64,000 bases of DNA from Actinocorallia populi (GTDB taxonomy: Bacteria; Actinomycetota; Actinomycetes; Streptosporangiales; Streptosporangiaceae), in NCBI RefSeq assembly GCF_002995495.1, contig NZ_PVZV01000007.1, positions 496,001-560,000 on the forward strand, given 5' to 3'. Under the pieces are notes generated by a model. It searched no databases. It saw only the letters and a program-made list of their open reading frames with translations, and was not told the DNA's origin. Below, piece after piece: positions 1,370 through 8,076 of this stretch. The stretch's first letter is position 1. Every line of letters begins with the position of its first letter. A program made the position numbers and the translations under genes.

Positions 1370-2290
1370 TCAGGGCAGGCGCAGCTCGGCGTACACGGCG
1401 CGGTGGTCGCTGCCCGGCAGGTCGTGGACCGAGTAGTCCAGGACGGCGATCCGGCGGTCGGCGAAGACGTGGTCGATGACGATGCCGGGCGTCGACCATC
1501 CCGCGGTGGGCCAGGTGGCGTGCAGTCCCGCGCCGCGGACCTCGGCGGCGTCGCGGTAGCCGGTGGAGAGCAGACCGCGCAGGCTCGCGTGGTCGAGGGT
1601 GGCGTTGAAGTCCCCGGCCAGGATCCGGAGCTCGCCCTCGGGCGTGGCGGCGGGCAGCTCGGCCTGCGCGGCGCGCCAGCAACGGCCGAGGCCGGGGTGC
1701 AGGGGGGCGCAGGTGTGCACGGCCATGAACTCGGTCCGCTGCGCCGAGCCGGGGACGTCCAGCACCGCCCGGACGGCGCCCGCCGGGGCGACCCTGGCCT
1801 GGAAGGGGTGGCGCGAGTACAGCGTGGTGTCGTGCGTGCCGTTCGCGGTGTGCGGGAACAGGTCGAGGATGCCCTTCTCCTCCAACTTCTGGCGGGTTCC
1901 AGGCGGTAGCTCCTGGACCGACAGCACGTCGGCGCGCAGTTCCCGCGCCAGGCCGAGCAGCCGGTCGGGCGGGGTGAGACCGAACCGGATGTTGGCGCTG
2001 AGCACCCGCAGCACCGGCCCCTTCGCCTCGGGTTGCCCCTCCTCCAGCAGCCGAGGGAGGACGAGGCCGCCGAGCACCACCGCGACGGCCAGCCCGGCCA
2101 CCGCCGGCACCCGGCGGCGCAGCAGCAGCGCGGCGACCGGCACGGCGAACGCCGCACCCGCCACGTAGGGGGTGAAGGAGACCAGCTGGATCCACCGGAA
2201 GCCGGCGTCGATCCCGGAGAGCCGCAACACCGTCCACATGAGGAAGGGCGCCACCAGCGCCCAGGCGAGGACCGTTCTCCATCGACCCAT
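1370..2290 (-). CDS. Membrane-anchored endonuclease/exonuclease/phosphatase (EEP) family protein
   Basis: The 306-residue product has about three N-terminal hydrophobic helices (residues 1-85), then a DNase I-like EEP domain. Visible metal and catalytic motifs are LSANIRFG, VLSVQELP (catalytic Glu), ILAGDFNAT (Asp/Asn) and GSDHRAV near the C-terminus (Asp-His). Proteins of this shape (vancomycin-resistance VanJ-like and related phosphatases) place the catalytic domain outside the membrane and cleave phosphoesters. Whether the substrate is a lipid diphosphate, nucleotide or DNA is not visible. ATG 2290 is chosen because it precedes the first helix. The gene diverges from the NADAR gene across 120 nt. 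Confidence 0.8.
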   Translation of the reverse strand: MGRWRTVLAWALVAPFLMWTVLRLSGIDAGFRWIQLVSFTPYVAGAAFAVPVAALLLRRRVPAVAGLAVAVVLGGLVLPRLLEEGQPEAKGPVLRVLSANIRFGLTPPDRLLGLARELRADVLSVQELPPGTRQKLEEKGILDLFPHTANGTHDTTLYSRHPFQARVAPAGAVRAVLDVPGSAQRTEFMAVHTCAPLHPGLGRCWRAAQAELPAATPEGELRILAGDFNATLDHASLRGLLSTGYRDAAEVRGAGLHATWPTAGWSTPGIVIDHVFADRRIAVLDYSVHDLPGSDHRAVYAELRLP

Positions 2291-2397
2291 GCTCAGTCCT
2301 CCCGATCGGCGGGTGAGCGGCGTCCGGCGCCCCGGAGCCGCGACCGGAGCGAGTTTAACGGTCCGAAAACCCCTGGGATCGCGGCGTCCGCGGCTCC

Positions 2398-2411
2398 TAA
2401 GGTGTCGCCCA
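2398..2411 (+). promoter_or_regulatory. -10 element of a probable leaderless promoter (NADAR gene)
   Basis: TAAGGT (2398-2403) lies 7 nt before the ATG at 2411, and no Shine-Dalgarno lies between. Transcription would start at or next to the start codon. The -35 is weak (TGGGAT near 2374). Confidence 0.5.
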
Positions 2412-2950
2412 TGGAACCGCGCAGCGTGGAAGACCTCCGGAAGGCGCAGGCGGCCGACGCCGCCCTGAAGTACCTCTTCTTCTGGGGGCACCGGCCGCAC
2501 CCGAGCGGCAGGCACGTGCTGAGCCAGTGGTTCGAGCACGACTTCGAGGCGGACGGGCAGGTCTACCGCAGCGCCGAGCACTACATGATGGCGGGCAAGG
2601 CGCGGCTGTTCGGCGACGCGGAGACCGAGGCGCTGGTCCTGGCCTCGGGGCATCCGGACGAGGCGAAGAGGCTCGGCCGCCGGGTGCGGGGCTTCGACGA
2701 CAGGACCTGGGCCGAGCACCGGTTCGAACTGGTCGTCCAGGGCAATGTGGCGAAGTTCGGCGCCGACCCCGGACTGCGCGGCTACCTGCTGGGCACCGGT
2801 ACCCGGGTCCTGGTCGAGGCGAGCCCGCTCGACCGGATCTGGGGCATCGGGCTGGCCGCCGACGACGAGCGCGCCGCCGACCCGGCCCGCTGGAGGGGGC
2901 TCAACCTGCTGGGTTTCGCGTTGATGGAGGCGCGCGCCCGGCTGCGGTAA
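2411..2950 (+). CDS. NADAR-family (YbiA-like) ADP-ribose glycosidase
   Basis: The 179-residue product has the NADAR fold across its full length. Visible motifs are FFWGHRP, LSQWFEHDFEADG, YRSAEHYMMAGKA, the central ALASGHP-like segment and WGIGLAADD near the C-terminus. The family includes N-glycosidases acting on riboflavin-pathway intermediates and enzymes that remove ADP-ribose from guanine bases in DNA (partners of DarT1). The ATG at 2411 is preferred because a leaderless -10 precedes it. It runs co-directionally into the RNA ligase gene with 40 nt between them, so a role in nucleic-acid repair is plausible. That role is inference from context; the fold call is strong. Confidence 0.85.
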   Translation: MEPRSVEDLRKAQAADAALKYLFFWGHRPHPSGRHVLSQWFEHDFEADGQVYRSAEHYMMAGKARLFGDAETEALVLASGHPDEAKRLGRRVRGFDDRTWAEHRFELVVQGNVAKFGADPGLRGYLLGTGTRVLVEASPLDRIWGIGLAADDERAADPARWRGLNLLGFALMEARARLR

Positions 2951-2954
2951 ATCG

Positions 2955-2991
2955 TTCGACGGAGCCGTCCGCACCGCGTACAACGGTGGCA
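2955..2991 (+). promoter_or_regulatory. Probable internal promoter of the RNA ligase gene
   Basis: TTCGAC (about 2955-2960), 18 nt, then TACAAC (2979-2984), with the ATG 6 nt later. The spacing fits a leaderless sigma-70-type start inside the NADAR-ligase gap, though GGTGGC just before the ATG could also act as a weak Shine-Dalgarno. Confidence 0.35.
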
Positions 2992-3779
2992 TGATCCGCA
3001 AATACCCCCGTACTCCACATCTGCAGGGGTCGCGGCTCCAGCCGGGCGACCACGATCTGGCGGCGGTGCCGTTCCGGGACGTGGCCGGCCGGTACCTGGT
3101 CGTGGAGGAGAAACTCGACGGGGCCAACTGCGGCATCAGCTTCGACGCGGACGGCGGGCTGCGGCTGCAGTCGCGCGGCCATTACCTGGCCGGCGGCCCG
3201 AGGGAACGGCAGTTCGCGCCGCTCAAGGCCTGGGCGTCGGCAGTCTCGCACCTGCTGTGGCCGGTGCTGGGCTCCCGGTATGTCGTATACGGCGAGTGGA
3301 TGTACGCCAAGCACACCGTCTTCTACGACGCCCTTCCCCACTATTTCTGCGAGTTCGACGTCTACGACCGCGATGAGGACGTGTTCCTCTCCACCGCCGC
3401 GCGCCGGGAACTGCTCGCGGGCACTCCCGTCCACTCCGTCCCGGTGTTGCGTGAAGGGAAGGTCGCCCGGTTGGAGGAGCTGACGTCGCTCGTCGGTCCG
3501 TCCACGTGCCGGACCGGGCGTTGGCGGGAGGCGCTGGATGCGGCCGCGCTGGCCGCCGGGCTCGATCCCGGGCGGGTGCGGGCCGAGACCGACTCCGCCG
3601 ACGAGATGGAGGGCCTCTACCTCAAGGTCGAGGAAGGCGGGCGGACGGTCGACCGGTTCAAGTGGGTGCGCTCGAGCTTCCTGACCGCCATCCTCGACGC
3701 CGGAAGCCACTGGCAGGACCGGCCGATCGTCGCGAACGGGCTGGCCGACCCGGAGGTGCTTTATGCGGGTGTTCGCTGA
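2991..3779 (+). CDS. RNA ligase (nucleotidyltransferase superfamily)
   Basis: The 262-residue product carries the ordered motifs of covalent polynucleotide ligases. Motif I is EEKLDGANCG, with K41 as the AMP-accepting lysine. A downstream LQSRGHYL follows, then motif III YFCEFDVYD (around E121), motif IV EGLYLK (207-212) and motif V FKWVR (223-227). It should use ATP to seal 3'-OH and 5'-PO4 RNA ends. It lacks a large C-terminal domain, as in small Rnl-type enzymes found beside end-healing kinases. Its 3' end overlaps the HD-Pnk gene by 17 nt, which indicates translational coupling and a joint role. The exact Rnl subfamily is not determined. Confidence 0.9.
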   Translation: MIRKYPRTPHLQGSRLQPGDHDLAAVPFRDVAGRYLVVEEKLDGANCGISFDADGGLRLQSRGHYLAGGPRERQFAPLKAWASAVSHLLWPVLGSRYVVYGEWMYAKHTVFYDALPHYFCEFDVYDRDEDVFLSTAARRELLAGTPVHSVPVLREGKVARLEELTSLVGPSTCRTGRWREALDAAALAAGLDPGRVRAETDSADEMEGLYLKVEEGGRTVDRFKWVRSSFLTAILDAGSHWQDRPIVANGLADPEVLYAGVR

Positions 3780-4884
3780 ACTCTGCCCGCGGCCGCCGCA
3801 CTGGCGGCTGGACTGGGCGGCCGTCCGTGAACGGTTCCCCTGGATCCGGGAGCTCGCGGGCGTCGCGCAGGATCCGGTGCACCACGCCGAAGGCGACGTC
3901 GAGACGCACACGCGCCTGGCGTGCGAGGCGCTGGCCGCGCTGCCGCGCTGGCGGGAGCGCCCGGAGGACGAGCGCACGAGGCTCTTCACCGCGACGCTCC
4001 TGCATGACGTGGCCAAACCCCGGTGCACCAAGGAGGAGGACGGCCGGATCACCGCGCACGGCCACTCCCGCCACGGCGACCTGATGGCCCGCCGGATCCT
4101 GTGGGAGCTCGGCGTTCCGATCGCCTGGCGCGAGCACGTGACCGCGCTCGTCCGCCACCACCAGGTGCCGTTCTGGGGGTTGGAGCGCCCCGACCTGCGG
4201 CGGACGGCCTTCCGGGTGAGCCTGCTCGCCGCCAACGCCGACCTCGTCCTGCTCGCCGAGGCCGACCTGCGCGGCAGGGAGTGCGGCGACCTCCCCGGGA
4301 TGCTGGAGAACGTCGCCCTGTACGAGGAGTACTGCGCCGAGGAGGAATGCCTGGACGGGCCGCGGGCCTTCCCCTCCGACCACGCCCGGTTCCAGTACTT
4401 CCGCACGCCCGGCCGCGATCCCTCCTACGCGGCCTACGACGACACCCTCCTGACGGTCACCGTGCTGTCGGGGCTGCCCGGCGCGGGCAAGGACACCTGG
4501 ATCGCCGCGCACCGCCCGGACCTGCCGGTCGTCAGCCTCGACCGGCTGCGCGCCGAGCTGGGCGTCTCCCCTGCTGCCGACCAGGGGCCGGTCGTCGCGG
4601 CAGCCTTCGAGCAGGCCAGAGGCCACCTGCGGGCGGGCCGCCCGTTCGTCTGGAACGCCACCAACGTGTCACGGCAGCTGCGGGACCGGTGCATCGGCCT
4701 CGCCGCCGCCTACCGGGCCAGGATCGAACTGGTGTCGCTGGAGGCGGCTCCGGCCGTTCTGCGCGCCCGCAACCGCGCCCGCCCCTCTCCCGTCCCGGAC
4801 GCGGTCATCACCCGGCTGGCCGCCCGCTGGGAGACCCCCGACCCGACCGAGGCGCACACCGTCACCCGGCTCGATCTGACGTGA
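3763..4884 (+). CDS. HD-Pnk: HD phosphoesterase fused to 5'-OH polynucleotide kinase
   Basis: The 373-residue product has two domains. Residues about 25-220 form an HD hydrolase: HHAEGDVETH, LLHDVAKP (H81-D82), GHSRHGD and VRHHQVP. Residues about 228-373 form a P-loop kinase: LSGLPGAGKDTW (236-246), SLDRLR with D260 placed as the catalytic base, and WNATNVSRQLRD as the lid/arginine segment. The same architecture is the characterised Runella HD-Pnk, which removes 2',3'-cyclic or 2'-phosphates and phosphorylates 5'-OH ends. Together with the overlapping ligase it forms a complete healing-and-sealing RNA repair pathway for breaks made by ribonucleases. The ATG lies inside the ligase gene. Convergent with the next gene, 7 nt apart. 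Confidence 0.9.
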   Translation: MRVFAELCPRPPHWRLDWAAVRERFPWIRELAGVAQDPVHHAEGDVETHTRLACEALAALPRWRERPEDERTRLFTATLLHDVAKPRCTKEEDGRITAHGHSRHGDLMARRILWELGVPIAWREHVTALVRHHQVPFWGLERPDLRRTAFRVSLLAANADLVLLAEADLRGRECGDLPGMLENVALYEEYCAEEECLDGPRAFPSDHARFQYFRTPGRDPSYAAYDDTLLTVTVLSGLPGAGKDTWIAAHRPDLPVVSLDRLRAELGVSPAADQGPVVAAAFEQARGHLRAGRPFVWNATNVSRQLRDRCIGLAAAYRARIELVSLEAAPAVLRARNRARPSPVPDAVITRLAARWETPDPTEAHTVTRLDLT

Positions 4885-4891
4885 ACGCGCG

Positions 4892-5554
4892 TCAGAGCCC
4901 GCCCACGACCTGCCAGCGTCCCCGGCTCAGCTCCAGGCGCAGCAGTCTGCCGGAGACGGGAACACGCGCCTTGTCCCCGTCGATCCGGGCCTCGCCCAAT
5001 CGCAGGGGCTCCACCAGATCGAGGGTGAGATCGTCCTGGACGAAGCTCACCTCCGGCATCCGCTCGGAGAGCTCCCGCTTGAGGCCGCGGTCGAGCGGAC
5101 GGTCGGCGCACTCGCCACGCAGCGGGCAGACCTGGTCCAGGATCCGCAGAGGACGGGCCTTTCTCAGGTCGTCGTTCGTCCCTTCCTTCAGGAAGGCGTC
5201 GATCGCGGCCTCGTAGACGGCGGCGGACCCCGCCGAACGACCCGAGGCGAGGGCCTCCGGAGCGGAATCACCCAGGGAGTACGCCTCTCCCGACTTCTCC
5301 CGCAGCTTCTGGCCTTCGAGCGGACCGCTCGCCGGTTTGGCCGCCGAGCTGTCCGACTGCAGGGCGCTCTCGTGCTGGAGCACGACCGGGACGGCGATCG
5401 CCACGGCGGCGGCCAGGGCGAGGCCGCCCGCGGCGGCCTTCCATCGGCGGCGCGTCCGGGTGCGGCGGGCCCGCGCGACGACCTCGTCGGCCAGGCCGGG
5501 CCGCGGTGCGGGCGCCTCGGCGGCCAGCAGGCCCAGCAGTTCCCTGTCATCCAC
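4892..5554 (-). CDS. Single-pass membrane protein linked to an ECF sigma factor (possible anti-sigma role)
   Basis: The 220-residue product has a short cytosolic N-terminus (about residues 1-38, basic end RARRTRTRRRW), one membrane helix (about 40-60) and a polar exported C-terminal domain with two Cys in CPLRGECAD. It overlaps the sigma factor gene by 8 nt, so it is translationally coupled. In the SigE family of ECF factors, a downstream membrane protein of this layout is common and is often assumed to regulate the sigma factor. No recognisable zinc anti-sigma motif (HxxxCxxC) is present, so the anti-sigma role is only inferred. Confidence 0.6.
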   Translation of the reverse strand: MDDRELLGLLAAEAPAPRPGLADEVVARARRTRTRRRWKAAAGGLALAAAVAIAVPVVLQHESALQSDSSAAKPASGPLEGQKLREKSGEAYSLGDSAPEALASGRSAGSAAVYEAAIDAFLKEGTNDDLRKARPLRILDQVCPLRGECADRPLDRGLKRELSERMPEVSFVQDDLTLDLVEPLRLGEARIDGDKARVPVSGRLLRLELSRGRWQVVGGL

Positions 5555-6050
5555 GGGCCTCCCCCTCCACTGCCAACCCGTAGGCCTCCCGCAGTTTCTC
5601 CAGGCCGCGCAGCGTCTGGCTGCGGACCGTCCCGGCCGAGCACCCGAGCAGTTCGGCGACCTCGGCGACCTCCAGGCCCACCCAGTGCCGCAGCACCACG
5701 GCGGCCCGCTGCCGGGACGGCAGGGACGCCAGCGCGGAGCGCAGCCGGACGTTGCCGTCGATCCCGGCGTACGGGTCGGTCCCGTCGACGGTCTCGGGCA
5801 GCGCCTCCATCGCGGTCTCGTGCCTGCGGTGGGCCCGCCTGCGCTCGTCGGCGGCCACCGTGACCAGGACGCGCCGCACGTAGGCCTCGGGATTGCTCTC
5901 GATGTTCCGCCATCGAAGATACGCCTTGACCAGGGCGTTCTGCACCAGGTCCTCCGCGCCCGCGCGGTCGGCGGTCAGCAGGTAGGCCAGCCGGAGCAGC
6001 GCGGCGGAGCGTTCGGCCACGAACCGCCGGAACGCCTCCTCCTCGGCCAA
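5547..6050 (-). CDS. SigE-family ECF RNA polymerase sigma factor
   Basis: The 167-residue product has both sigma regions. Region 2 covers about residues 5-70 (LLRLAYLLTADRAGAEDLVQNALVKAY in two pieces, then RRVLVTVAADERRR). Region 4 covers about 105-160 (LASLPSRQRAAVVLRHW, then the helix-turn-helix LLGCSAGTVRSQTLRGLEKL). The start is probably TTG at 6050: GGAGG sits 5 nt upstream, and no ATG/GTG in frame gives a normal family length. A likely self-recognised promoter lies just upstream. It should direct RNA polymerase to a small regulon, probably including itself; the inducing signal is unknown. Confidence 0.85.
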   Translation of the reverse strand: MAEEEAFRRFVAERSAALLRLAYLLTADRAGAEDLVQNALVKAYLRWRNIESNPEAYVRRVLVTVAADERRRAHRRHETAMEALPETVDGTDPYAGIDGNVRLRSALASLPSRQRAAVVLRHWVGLEVAEVAELLGCSAGTVRSQTLRGLEKLREAYGLAVEGEARG

Positions 6051-6083
6051 GGAAACCTCCGATGGGGGATGGGGGGCGACCAG

Positions 6084-6109
6084 CGTCGCACGCTTCGCGC
6101 CGCGGTTCC
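6084..6109 (-). promoter_or_regulatory. Putative autoregulatory ECF promoter
   Basis: On the minus strand GGAAC (6109-6105), 16 nt, then CGACG (6088-6084), about 34 nt before the TTG start of the sigma gene. GGAAC -35 boxes are typical of ECF factors, and autoregulation is common. The -10 is only a partial match. Confidence 0.4.
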
Positions 6110-6120
6110 AACCCGGCGCG

Positions 6121-6780
6121 TCAGCGGGCGGGGACCTGCCAGACGGTGGTGCGCCGGTGGCGGGAGGCCTCGGGGGTGCGGCTGACCGGGACGTCGTAGC
6201 GGGCGAGGGCGGTGAACGCGCCGCGCGGCAGGTACCGCCGCCCGGGGTCGCCGACGAGCACCAGTGCGCCGGAGGCGGCGGCATCGCGCAGGAACGGCTC
6301 GATCCGGCGGGACAGCGCCTTGTCGTAGAAGACGTCTCCGGCCAGCACGACGTCGCAGGCGGGCGGGCGGGAGTCCAGAAGGTCCGCGCAGAGGGCGGTG
6401 ACGCGCGCCCCGTTGGCCTCGGCGTTGGCGCGGATGGCGGCGGCCGCGTACGGGTCGATCTCGCAGGCGGTGACCTCGCGGGCGCCCGAGCGAGCCGCGG
6501 CCAGCGCCGCCACGCCCGAGCCGGCGGCCACGTCCAGGACGGTGCGGCCGCGGACCAGTTCGGGCACGTCCAGCACGTGCCGGGCCAGCGCCAGGCCGCC
6601 CGCCCAGGCGAAGGACCAGTAGGGCAGGCCCGTGTCCTCGATGTGCTCTCCCAGGCCGTACGGGTCGTCGGCCTGGTGGAGGCGGAGCTCGGGGAGGTAG
6701 GGGACTGTTCTCAGCCGCGTGTGGTCACGGACGAACGCCTCTTCTGGCGCCTTGCAGAGCGGCGGGGGGTCGGGCTGCAC
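6121..6780 (-). CDS. Class I SAM-dependent methyltransferase (COG3897-like)
   Basis: The 219-residue product has a seven-strand methyltransferase core. Motif I is LDVAAGSGVAALAAA, followed by an acidic CEIDPYA that should bind the SAM ribose, then LCADLLD and VVLAGDVFYD. The tract YWSFAWAGGLALARHVLD before motif I matches the nicotinamide N-methylase-like/ETFB-lysine methyltransferase group, whose members methylate proteins or small molecules. The substrate is unknown. It lies in line with the upstream Ala-rich gene but has about 120 nt of AT-richer DNA before it, so it probably has its own promoter. Confidence 0.8.
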   Translation of the reverse strand: MQPDPPPLCKAPEEAFVRDHTRLRTVPYLPELRLHQADDPYGLGEHIEDTGLPYWSFAWAGGLALARHVLDVPELVRGRTVLDVAAGSGVAALAAARSGAREVTACEIDPYAAAAIRANAEANGARVTALCADLLDSRPPACDVVLAGDVFYDKALSRRIEPFLRDAAASGALVLVGDPGRRYLPRGAFTALARYDVPVSRTPEASRHRRTTVWQVPAR

Positions 6781-6903
6781 CTTGATGACCTTAATCCGCG
6801 ATTCCTTACAGCGCCATTTCCCGGGGTCAGCAAAGGCAATGTAAATTTTTTACCGCCAGAGTAGAGACAGGGGAACGATCCCCCGGCGGCGCTGCGGCGG
6901 GCG
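6781..6903. other. AT-richer intergenic segment with a short palindrome
   Basis: The stretch between two minus-strand genes is unusually AT-rich for this window. It contains GTAAATTTTTTAC (6841-6853; 5-3-5 inverted repeat) and a GGGG/CCCC hairpin near 6878-6893. It probably holds the promoter of the methyltransferase and the terminator of the preceding gene. No gene is seen. Confidence 0.4.
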
Positions 6904-8076
6904 TCAGGACGTGCGGCGGAAGGCGCGTGCCCCGGTGCTCCTGGCGGCGCTGACCGCGATGCGGGGGACGGTGGCGGGGACCAGGCGGAAGGAGACCCGG
7001 ACCGCCAGTCCGGCGGCGGCCTCCCGGGCGGGGTCCGCGATCAGGCGGGCGATGCGGGGGGCGGTGTCCGGCTCGGACGGGGGCGGGGGCCGCTCGTCCA
7101 GCAGGACGGCGACCGCGCGGGTCCAGGCCTGGCGGACGGACTCGCGGGCGATGTCGCGCATCAGGTCGCGCAGGGCGGTGCGGACGACCTCCTCGGCCAT
7201 GGCGGTCAGCGCCCGGCCCAGATCGGTGCGGGCGGCCCAGCCCGCGGCGCCGAGCGCGCCCCTGGCCGTCAGTTCCGGGACACCGAGCCGTTCGGCGGCG
7301 CCGGCCGCCTCCCCGGCGGTGCGGGCGGCCCGGCGGACCGGTTCGCTGCGCGCGGCGCCGCCCGTCCAGTCCGCGGCTGCGGCCGGGAGCGGGCCGAGCT
7401 CCCCGGCGGCCGAGCCGAGCCCGGCCAGGCCCGCCCGGACCGTCCCCGCCAGATCGGCCGCGGTCTGCCTGGCGGCCTCCTCGGCGATCTCCAGGGCGAG
7501 TTCGGGGCCGAGCTCCAGCACCACGTCCAGCACGACGTCGGCGACGACGTCGACCACCGGTTCCAGCGTGGCCCCGGCGGCGGCCCTGGCCAGGCCGGTG
7601 CCCGCGGCGCGCTCGGTCAGCCCCACGAGGTTGGCGGTGGTGGCGCGGGCCAGGGGGTTGCGCAGGGCGAGCCGCCGCGCGGCGCGCGACCACGGGTGGT
7701 CGGCGGCGCGGCCCGCCGCGCCCAGGGCCGCCGCGGCCACCGGGTTGCCCGTGGCGGCCGCGGCCAGCTCGCCCGCGAGCCGGTCGGTGAGGGAGGCGGC
7801 GATGCGGGCCGCGGCGTGGCGGGCGGCCTGCTCCACCGGGCCGCGGACGGCGGGCTGCTCCAGCGCCCGCTCCAGTCCCGTCCTGGCCAGGTGGACGGCG
7901 ACGTCGCGGCCCAGGTCGCGTACGGGCGCGGTGAGCAGCAGGCCCAGGCCCGCCAGGTCCCACAGTTCGGCGACCAGGCCCTCCTCGGGCCGATCGCCCC
8001 TCTCCCCGTCCACCGCCGCCCCGCCCTCGCCGTTTCGCGCACTCCGGTCGGACTCACGGTAACCGCTGTTCCGCAC
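6904..8076 (-). CDS. Alanine-rich hypothetical protein
   Basis: Unrecognised protein of 390 residues from GTG 8076; a GTG at 8013 would give 369 and is equally defensible. It is extremely rich in Ala, Arg, Leu and Val and poor in aromatic residues. Repeating amphipathic helices are predicted by eye, for example VVDVVADVVLDVVLELG and repeated RAARTAGEAAGAAE-type segments. The N-terminal part (LWDLAGLGLLLTAPVRDLG) is the most hydrophobic. No catalytic motif, clear transmembrane segment or signal peptide is seen. It may be a coiled or helical-bundle structural protein. It diverges from the pirin gene, with the start codons 70 nt apart. Confidence 0.55.
   Translation of the reverse strand: MRNSGYRESDRSARNGEGGAAVDGERGDRPEEGLVAELWDLAGLGLLLTAPVRDLGRDVAVHLARTGLERALEQPAVRGPVEQAARHAAARIAASLTDRLAGELAAAATGNPVAAAALGAAGRAADHPWSRAARRLALRNPLARATTANLVGLTERAAGTGLARAAAGATLEPVVDVVADVVLDVVLELGPELALEIAEEAARQTAADLAGTVRAGLAGLGSAAGELGPLPAAAADWTGGAARSEPVRRAARTAGEAAGAAERLGVPELTARGALGAAGWAARTDLGRALTAMAEEVVRTALRDLMRDIARESVRQAWTRAVAVLLDERPPPPSEPDTAPRIARLIADPAREAAAGLAVRVSFRLVPATVPRIAVSAARSTGARAFRRTS

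Follow-up and report, generated by a model that had tools for sequence, protein, structure and literature searches.

A ligase–HD-Pnk gene pair, probably inserted as an operon beside a resident NADAR gene, in an actinomycete genome

In Runella slithyformis, HD-Pnk is reportedly paired with an ATP-dependent ligase in a healing-and-sealing system. A Deinococcus ligase-like protein takes AMP, has no ligase action by itself, and is partnered by a 5'-polynucleotide kinase (PMC1997131). HD-like phosphatases also occur in the RNA repair of a few jumbo phages (PMC7824862). Here we describe a ligase–HD-Pnk gene pair that lies downstream of a gene for a NADAR domain protein. The locus is in a stretch of 64,000 nucleotides, hereafter the window (G000:C7:496001-560000), within an 8.25-Mb genome in 25 contigs. 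The host, judged from relatives, is an actinomycete. Our analysis makes it probable that a two-gene end-healing-and-sealing operon, seemingly with its own promoter, was inserted downstream of a resident NADAR gene, and that the closeness of the three genes is mainly positional. No account of NADAR beside ligase–HD-Pnk was found among the papers listed in a literature search that had most subscription journals outside its reach.

The features of the locus are as follows.

2411-2950, plus strand: gene for a YbiA-type NADAR domain protein (179 amino acids; PF08719, 171.4 bits; TIGR02464, 152.6 bits); resident gene of the site
2948-2990, plus strand: probable leaderless promoter of the ligase (TAAATCGTTCGAC block at 2948-2960, 18-nucleotide spacer, TACAAC at 2979-2984, 6 nucleotides, ATG)
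2991-3779, plus strand: gene for an ATP-dependent RNA ligase family protein, the presumed sealing enzyme (262 amino acids; PF09414, 133.2 bits; invariant signature residues)
3763-4884, plus strand: gene for HD-Pnk, the presumed end-healing enzyme (373 amino acids; N-terminal HD domain and C-terminal P-loop kinase)
2951-4891, no strand: segment of about 1.94 kb without counterpart in both congeners; holds the ligase and HD-Pnk genes and most of the promoter
1370-2290, minus strand: gene for an EEP (Exo_endo_phos) protein, the divergent neighbour (PF03372, 85.3 bits)

The NADAR and ligase genes are separated by 40 nucleotides (2951-2990), and the ligase and HD-Pnk genes overlap by 17 (3763-3779). 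Pfam scores for the NADAR, RNA_ligase, AAA_33 and HD domains each exceed their own cut-off. The initial annotation had listed three co-directional genes and a divergent EEP gene; open reading frame coordinates and Pfam bear this out, the three genes are intact, and the distances given were exact. It had further read the three genes as a possible complete repair cassette.

We compared the pair with its relatives. HD-Pnk relatives were collected from genome contigs, and in each of the best 80 of 326 a ligase was matched on the same strand, upstream of HD-Pnk. At one locus (L086) only the end of the ligase matches, and at another (L053) the ligase is 2.6 kb away from HD-Pnk. The pair stays together while its neighbours vary between lineages. 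The pairing proposed at the outset thus stands: ligase and HD-Pnk form a conserved pair of the healing-and-sealing kind, with activities presumed from their families. NADAR was found near the pair in none of the 80 loci (flanks of up to 8 kb, less at contig ends; tblastn at 1e-5 and a profile of 44 NADARs at E 0.1). The same loci had no EEP gene near the pair (tblastn, 1e-5). The initial annotation had itself named missing linkage of NADAR to the pair in related genomes as evidence against a cassette, and missing linkage is largely what the 80 loci show.

Genome surveys gave the same picture. HD-Pnk occurs in 91 of 341 genomes of the family, the window's own included. These fall in 7 of 68 genera, and all but five belong to genera g37 and g46 (86 genomes), which look like Actinomadura and Nocardiopsis respectively. 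In a draw of 396 genomes from the phylum, only the window's own HD-Pnk was recovered at E 1e-30 (both surveys scored at most five candidates per genome). NADAR was sought in 87 of the 91 HD-Pnk genomes, leaving out four with partial HD-Pnk (G579, G580, G680 and G689), and was present in 79 (73/80 plus 6/7). It was also present in 77 of 113 drawn genomes without HD-Pnk, and is therefore a common gene with or without the pair. None of 80 compared genomes had NADAR beside the pair; these overlap in species with the 80 loci, and many are drafts, where adjacent genes may go unnoticed if a contig ends between them. When tables of HD-Pnk and NADAR positions were compared by eye, the window's genome and G001 were the only ones in which the two genes lay nearer than about 390 kb on a shared contig.

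Mobile elements were surveyed in the same way. Of 51 plasmid records, 17 had an HD-Pnk match over 80% or more of the query, as did 1 of 16 phage records. Ten such plasmid or phage neighbourhoods were read, and profiles detected a ligase in seven and NADAR in none. Among 23 relatives on viral contigs, mostly of the HD domain only, none had a ligase or NADAR by profile, and one (L220) alone matches both domains. Taken together, the counts of 0/80 loci and 0/80 compared genomes speak against NADAR as a conserved third gene. The window's ligase and HD-Pnk belong to a known end-healing-and-sealing pair, and the three-gene cassette, seen only in the window and in G001, is not a conserved unit. The relatives show an old pair, to which NADAR is most likely only a neighbour.

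Other partners were also considered. No third partner other than NADAR was found across all lineages with a crude home-made gene finder that missed genes. Two neighbours, a GNAT-like gene (23 loci) and a WYL/HTH-like gene (21 loci; labels by eye), are lineage-specific. At L053 (Actinomadura rifamycini), some 2.6 kb with ABC-F-like and TetR-like genes (by eye; 5366-8000) splits the pair, and G682, probably the same species, shares the promoter letters and spacing of this locus. In Catellatospora tritici, two contigs (L105 and L106) carry the pair with identical ligase upstream regions, perhaps a duplication or an assembly artefact.

The chromosomal site also exists in a form that lacks the pair. 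We compared three genomes of the window's genus: its own, G016 and G075. Neither congener has HD-Pnk or a ligase match. When the window was aligned to G016 (L142) and G075 (L143), positions 290-2290, 2475-2939 and 5445 onward matched in order. The first block holds an oxidoreductase-like gene (by eye) and the EEP gene, the second is NADAR, and the third contains genes labelled by eye as antisigma-like, ECF sigma-like and methyltransferase-like. The segment 2951-4891, with exact ends taken from gene ends, has no counterpart in G016 or G075. It sits in the convergent gap between NADAR and the antisigma-like gene, and the latter ends about 70 nucleotides (G016) or about 12 nucleotides (G075, by eye) past NADAR in the congeners. 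Since the site has NADAR, EEP and sigma genes without the pair in both congeners, NADAR appears to be resident and the pair inserted. By synteny, the resident set comprises NADAR, EEP and the sigma genes, and the pair would be a 1.9-kb insertion. The EEP gene, which is syntenic with NADAR in the congeners, is not part of the repair pair. G089, too, has NADAR a few kilobases away from a match to window positions 6209-6705, with the pair elsewhere. The guanine plus cytosine content is 72.4% in the segment and 71.6% in the window, without a compositional break. In G016 and G075 an HxlR-like regulator (by eye; L142 7575-8033 and L143) separates EEP from NADAR; the window has none there.

The segment without counterpart carries most of a conserved element ahead of the ligase. 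We examined 83 upstream regions, from 79 of the best-80 loci, the window, G001, G085 and G109; L086 was dropped because its ligase start is missing. The motif TANA[AC]N precedes the ligase start in 83/83. It ends 6-8 nucleotides from the called start in 80, and in the other three the called start is probably early. At random points of the same regions the motif occurs 69 times in 16449 (0.4%). A second block, with consensus AAAACCGGTTGGC, lies 18-20 nucleotides upstream of the motif in 81/83, and conservation drops beyond it. In the window, TACAAC is 6 nucleotides before the ligase ATG and the upstream block overlaps the NADAR stop codon. From this spacing, the element is probably a leaderless promoter of the ligase–HD-Pnk operon. 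A scan of 2290-3050 with the sigma-70 consensus gave no promoter.

We also searched 25 g37 genomes with a strict form of the promoter pattern. Nineteen had one match each, always before the ligase, and six had no match; 18 of the matches lie about 0.8 kb before HD-Pnk and one lies 3.5 kb before it, and a reversed control gave 0. A regulon sharing the promoter was not seen with the strict pattern in these 25 genomes, where matches stood solely before the ligase. The promoter stretches of two g37 genomes (G674 and G678) are identical to those of named loci (L036 and L057). The initial annotation had held that transcription of the ligase only from its own promoter, with no shared regulation, would undo the three-gene link. 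A conserved promoter-like element does stand in the gap, which is consistent with a promoter of its own; transcription from it alone does not follow, as read-through from NADAR may occur.

Both proteins retain their expected residues. In an alignment of 29 chosen ligase sequences, E40-K41-L42-D43-G44, G101-E102, E207-G208, K212 and K224-W225 are invariant, and K41, in K41-L42-D43-G44, is the lysine of the nucleotidyltransferase KxDG motif. The ligase matched no chain in the PDB, whether by single sequence (0.001) or by profile (0.1). HD-Pnk has PF01966 at residues 56-140 (27.3 bits, cut-off 22) and PF13671 at 232-359 (76.6 bits). Among 30 chosen HD-Pnk sequences, the HD residues H40, H41, H49, H81-D82, H101, H132, H133 and D168 are invariant, as are S236-G237-L238-P239-G240 and G242-K243-D244 of the P-loop. 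The claims that the ligase has its signature residues and that HD-Pnk has both active sites therefore agree with the alignments. In a profile comparison with the PDB, the kinase part of HD-Pnk matched L-seryl-tRNA(Sec) kinase and chains named Metallophosphoesterase (4gp7 and 4jst), which we take to be the kinase domain of bacterial Pnkp. The HD part matched chains named Poly A polymerase (3wfo). The overlap of the two genes in actinomycete loci is mostly 14 or 17 nucleotides, and 8 in some (crude gene finder).

The window's genome has a second likely end-healing enzyme (G000:C8:250167-250538). Its open frame (L140 1381-3372) combines a P-loop kinase with a metallophosphoesterase (DVHG, GNHE) and the beginning of a ligase-like part, and resembles bacterial Pnkp by eye. 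Weaker ligase matches, of 31-39% identity, occur in 18 of 120 family genomes. The only one of these 18 scanned, G067, encodes a 632-amino-acid ligase–kinase fusion followed by a 962-amino-acid protein (L147 8303-13071), and the latter has MJ1316, EEP, 2H phosphoesterase and poly(A)-polymerase-like domains.

The position of NADAR could also reflect function. In the alternative that survives best, the three genes form a repair unit: ADP-ribosylhydrolases would have been recruited repeatedly beside ligase–HD-Pnk, and would clear ADP-ribose from damaged RNA or DNA before ends are healed and sealed. We judge this unlikely. It gains from a second adjacency. On a 3821-base contig of G001, ligase, HD-Pnk and NADAR are on one strand, with 13 nucleotides from HD-Pnk to the likely NADAR start. 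In a tree of 86 joined ligase–HD-Pnk pairs, the pair of G001 is sister to that of L032, which is the contig of G089 (support 0.98), and not to that of the window; NADAR of G089 is on another contig. The window's pair falls in a group with the Nocardia macrotermitis pair (L072; SH-like support 0.93). The G001 and window pairs are on different branches, and closeness to NADAR therefore arose twice, in different gene orders. Published observations point the same way. Deinococcus has an operon of DRB0100 ligase, DRB0099 PARG and DRB0098 HD-Pnk (PMC11833690, PMC1997131), NADARs strip ADP-ribose from guanosine in RNA (PMC11833690), and an association of NADARs with RNA repair systems has been mentioned (PMC9503650). 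A variant, which we regard as unlikely, is that ligase–HD-Pnk has repeatedly gained ADP-ribosylhydrolase neighbours of unrelated fold, because ADP-ribose on bases or ends would have to be cleared before healing and sealing: PARG in Deinococcus and NADAR downstream in G001 and upstream in the window, with the NADAR captures separate. Against a three-part unit stand the lack of NADAR beside the pair in the best loci, the compared genomes, the ten plasmid or phage neighbourhoods and the 23 viral loci, the residence of NADAR at the site without the pair, and the promoter-like element before the ligase.

Several observations weigh against a merely positional closeness or the insertion behind it. 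The HD-Pnk–NADAR adjacency of G001 is hardly predicted by chance, with 0.003 to 0.008 further cases expected. This is a rough estimate that assumes 1.2 NADARs per 7500 genes, uniform insertion and an uncertain number of separate surroundings, either 8 groups (merging loci that share any neighbour family, which over-merges) or about 25 (reading by eye). Set against that expectation, the G001 adjacency is suggestive of a functional link. The PARG gene between ligase and HD-Pnk in Deinococcus likewise speaks against pure accident (PMC11833690). NADAR is commoner with HD-Pnk (79/87) than without (77/113), a difference confounded by genus. The upstream promoter block of the window is weak, at 8/13; with free spacing, 68 of 410 null regions score as well. 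No terminator-like site was found between NADAR and ligase (scan of 2290-3050), and read-through is therefore possible. Finally, what favours gain over loss is one tree and a comparison of three genomes from the genus. With these points included, we consider a functional link of the pair to NADAR unlikely, and an inserted operon beside a resident NADAR gene remains our preferred explanation.

A different history would have the two congeners lose the pair, making NADAR–ligase–HD-Pnk the older order in the genus. The comparison of only three genomes of the genus leaves room for this, but few genomes of the family have the pair outside two genera, and the grouping of the window's pair with that of Nocardia macrotermitis favours transfer. 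We consider loss very unlikely.

The NADAR itself is of the YbiA type. Its NCBIfam match, TIGR02464, describes riboflavin biosynthesis intermediates N-glycosidase; the NCBIfam anti-phage NADAR model scored 23.2 against a cut-off of 240. In the Phytophthora nicotianae NADAR, ADP-ribose is contacted by E43, K50, R79, W89, R93, E125, D130 and W133 (PMC11543638). Residues E56, K63, R90, W100, R104, E136, D141 and W144 of the window's NADAR are identical to all eight, as mapped by hand through an alignment in which the aligned chain was assumed to be numbered two higher than in PMC11543638. The match to a characterised enzyme supports the NADAR call of the initial annotation. At the position of P. 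nicotianae E125, Glu marks the YbiA family and Asp the DarT-linked BC4488 family (PMC11125620, PMC11543638). The window's NADAR has Glu (E136), as in the YbiA family.

DarT was also considered as a partner of NADAR. A search at E 0.001 gave none in the window's genome, in G001 or in G075, and the sole DarT was in G016, the other congener without the pair (G016:C42:32680-33276, L219; 186.1 bits). PADLOC matched NADAR to a candidate family (PDC-M42C) and to a type I specificity subunit (14.5 bits). The initial suggestion of defence against a toxin or phage was an inference; the window's genome has no DarT by this search, and PADLOC matches NADAR only. A defence island against phages or toxins that takes in the EEP gene is highly improbable. 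PDC-M42C does match NADAR at 131 bits, but the ligase, HD-Pnk and EEP have no PADLOC match. EEP still accompanies NADAR in the congeners that lack the pair, and the other neighbours look by eye like an ECF sigma gene and its partner.

We propose that a ligase–HD-Pnk operon entered the convergent gap that follows a resident gene for a YbiA-type NADAR, horizontal transfer being the most likely route. Judging from its family, the HD domain would remove 2',3'-cyclic or 3'-phosphates, and the kinase domain would phosphorylate 5'-OH ends. The ligase, through K41-AMP, would then join the broken RNA strands once their ends are healed, and perhaps DNA strands as well. NADAR would be a separate N-glycosidase or ADP-ribosylguanine hydrolase. 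The pair may be seen as a portable mending kit for RNA or DNA, and the element conserved ahead of the ligase offers a way to learn when it is switched on. If the recurring closeness of ADP-ribosylhydrolases is functional, it ties ADP-ribose removal to strand repair. If it is not, the locus is an example of one insertion yielding a plausible three-gene story.

The locus shares parts with several known systems. Like the YbiA-family NADARs of E. coli (YbiA) and Phytophthora nicotianae, the window's NADAR has the domain, the ADP-ribose contacts and a stand-alone form. Whereas E. coli YbiA is in a LexA-controlled operon with dinG, rhlE and ybiB (PMC11125620), the window's NADAR adjoins a repair pair. 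The resemblance to the putative DRB0100-DRB0099-DRB0098 operon of Deinococcus radiodurans is that ligase and HD-Pnk occur with an ADP-ribosylhydrolase gene; there PARG is inside the operon, whereas in the window NADAR is upstream with a promoter-like element between (PMC11833690). With DarT1-NADAR toxin-antitoxin systems the window shares the NADAR superfamily, and differs in having no detected DarT in its genome and Glu instead of Asp at the subfamily position. The Runella slithyformis system is reportedly similar in its two-domain HD and kinase protein with a ligase as neighbour. Unlike that system, the pair described here is found in actinomycetes, mostly with overlaps of 14 or 17 nucleotides, and is preceded by a conserved promoter-like element.

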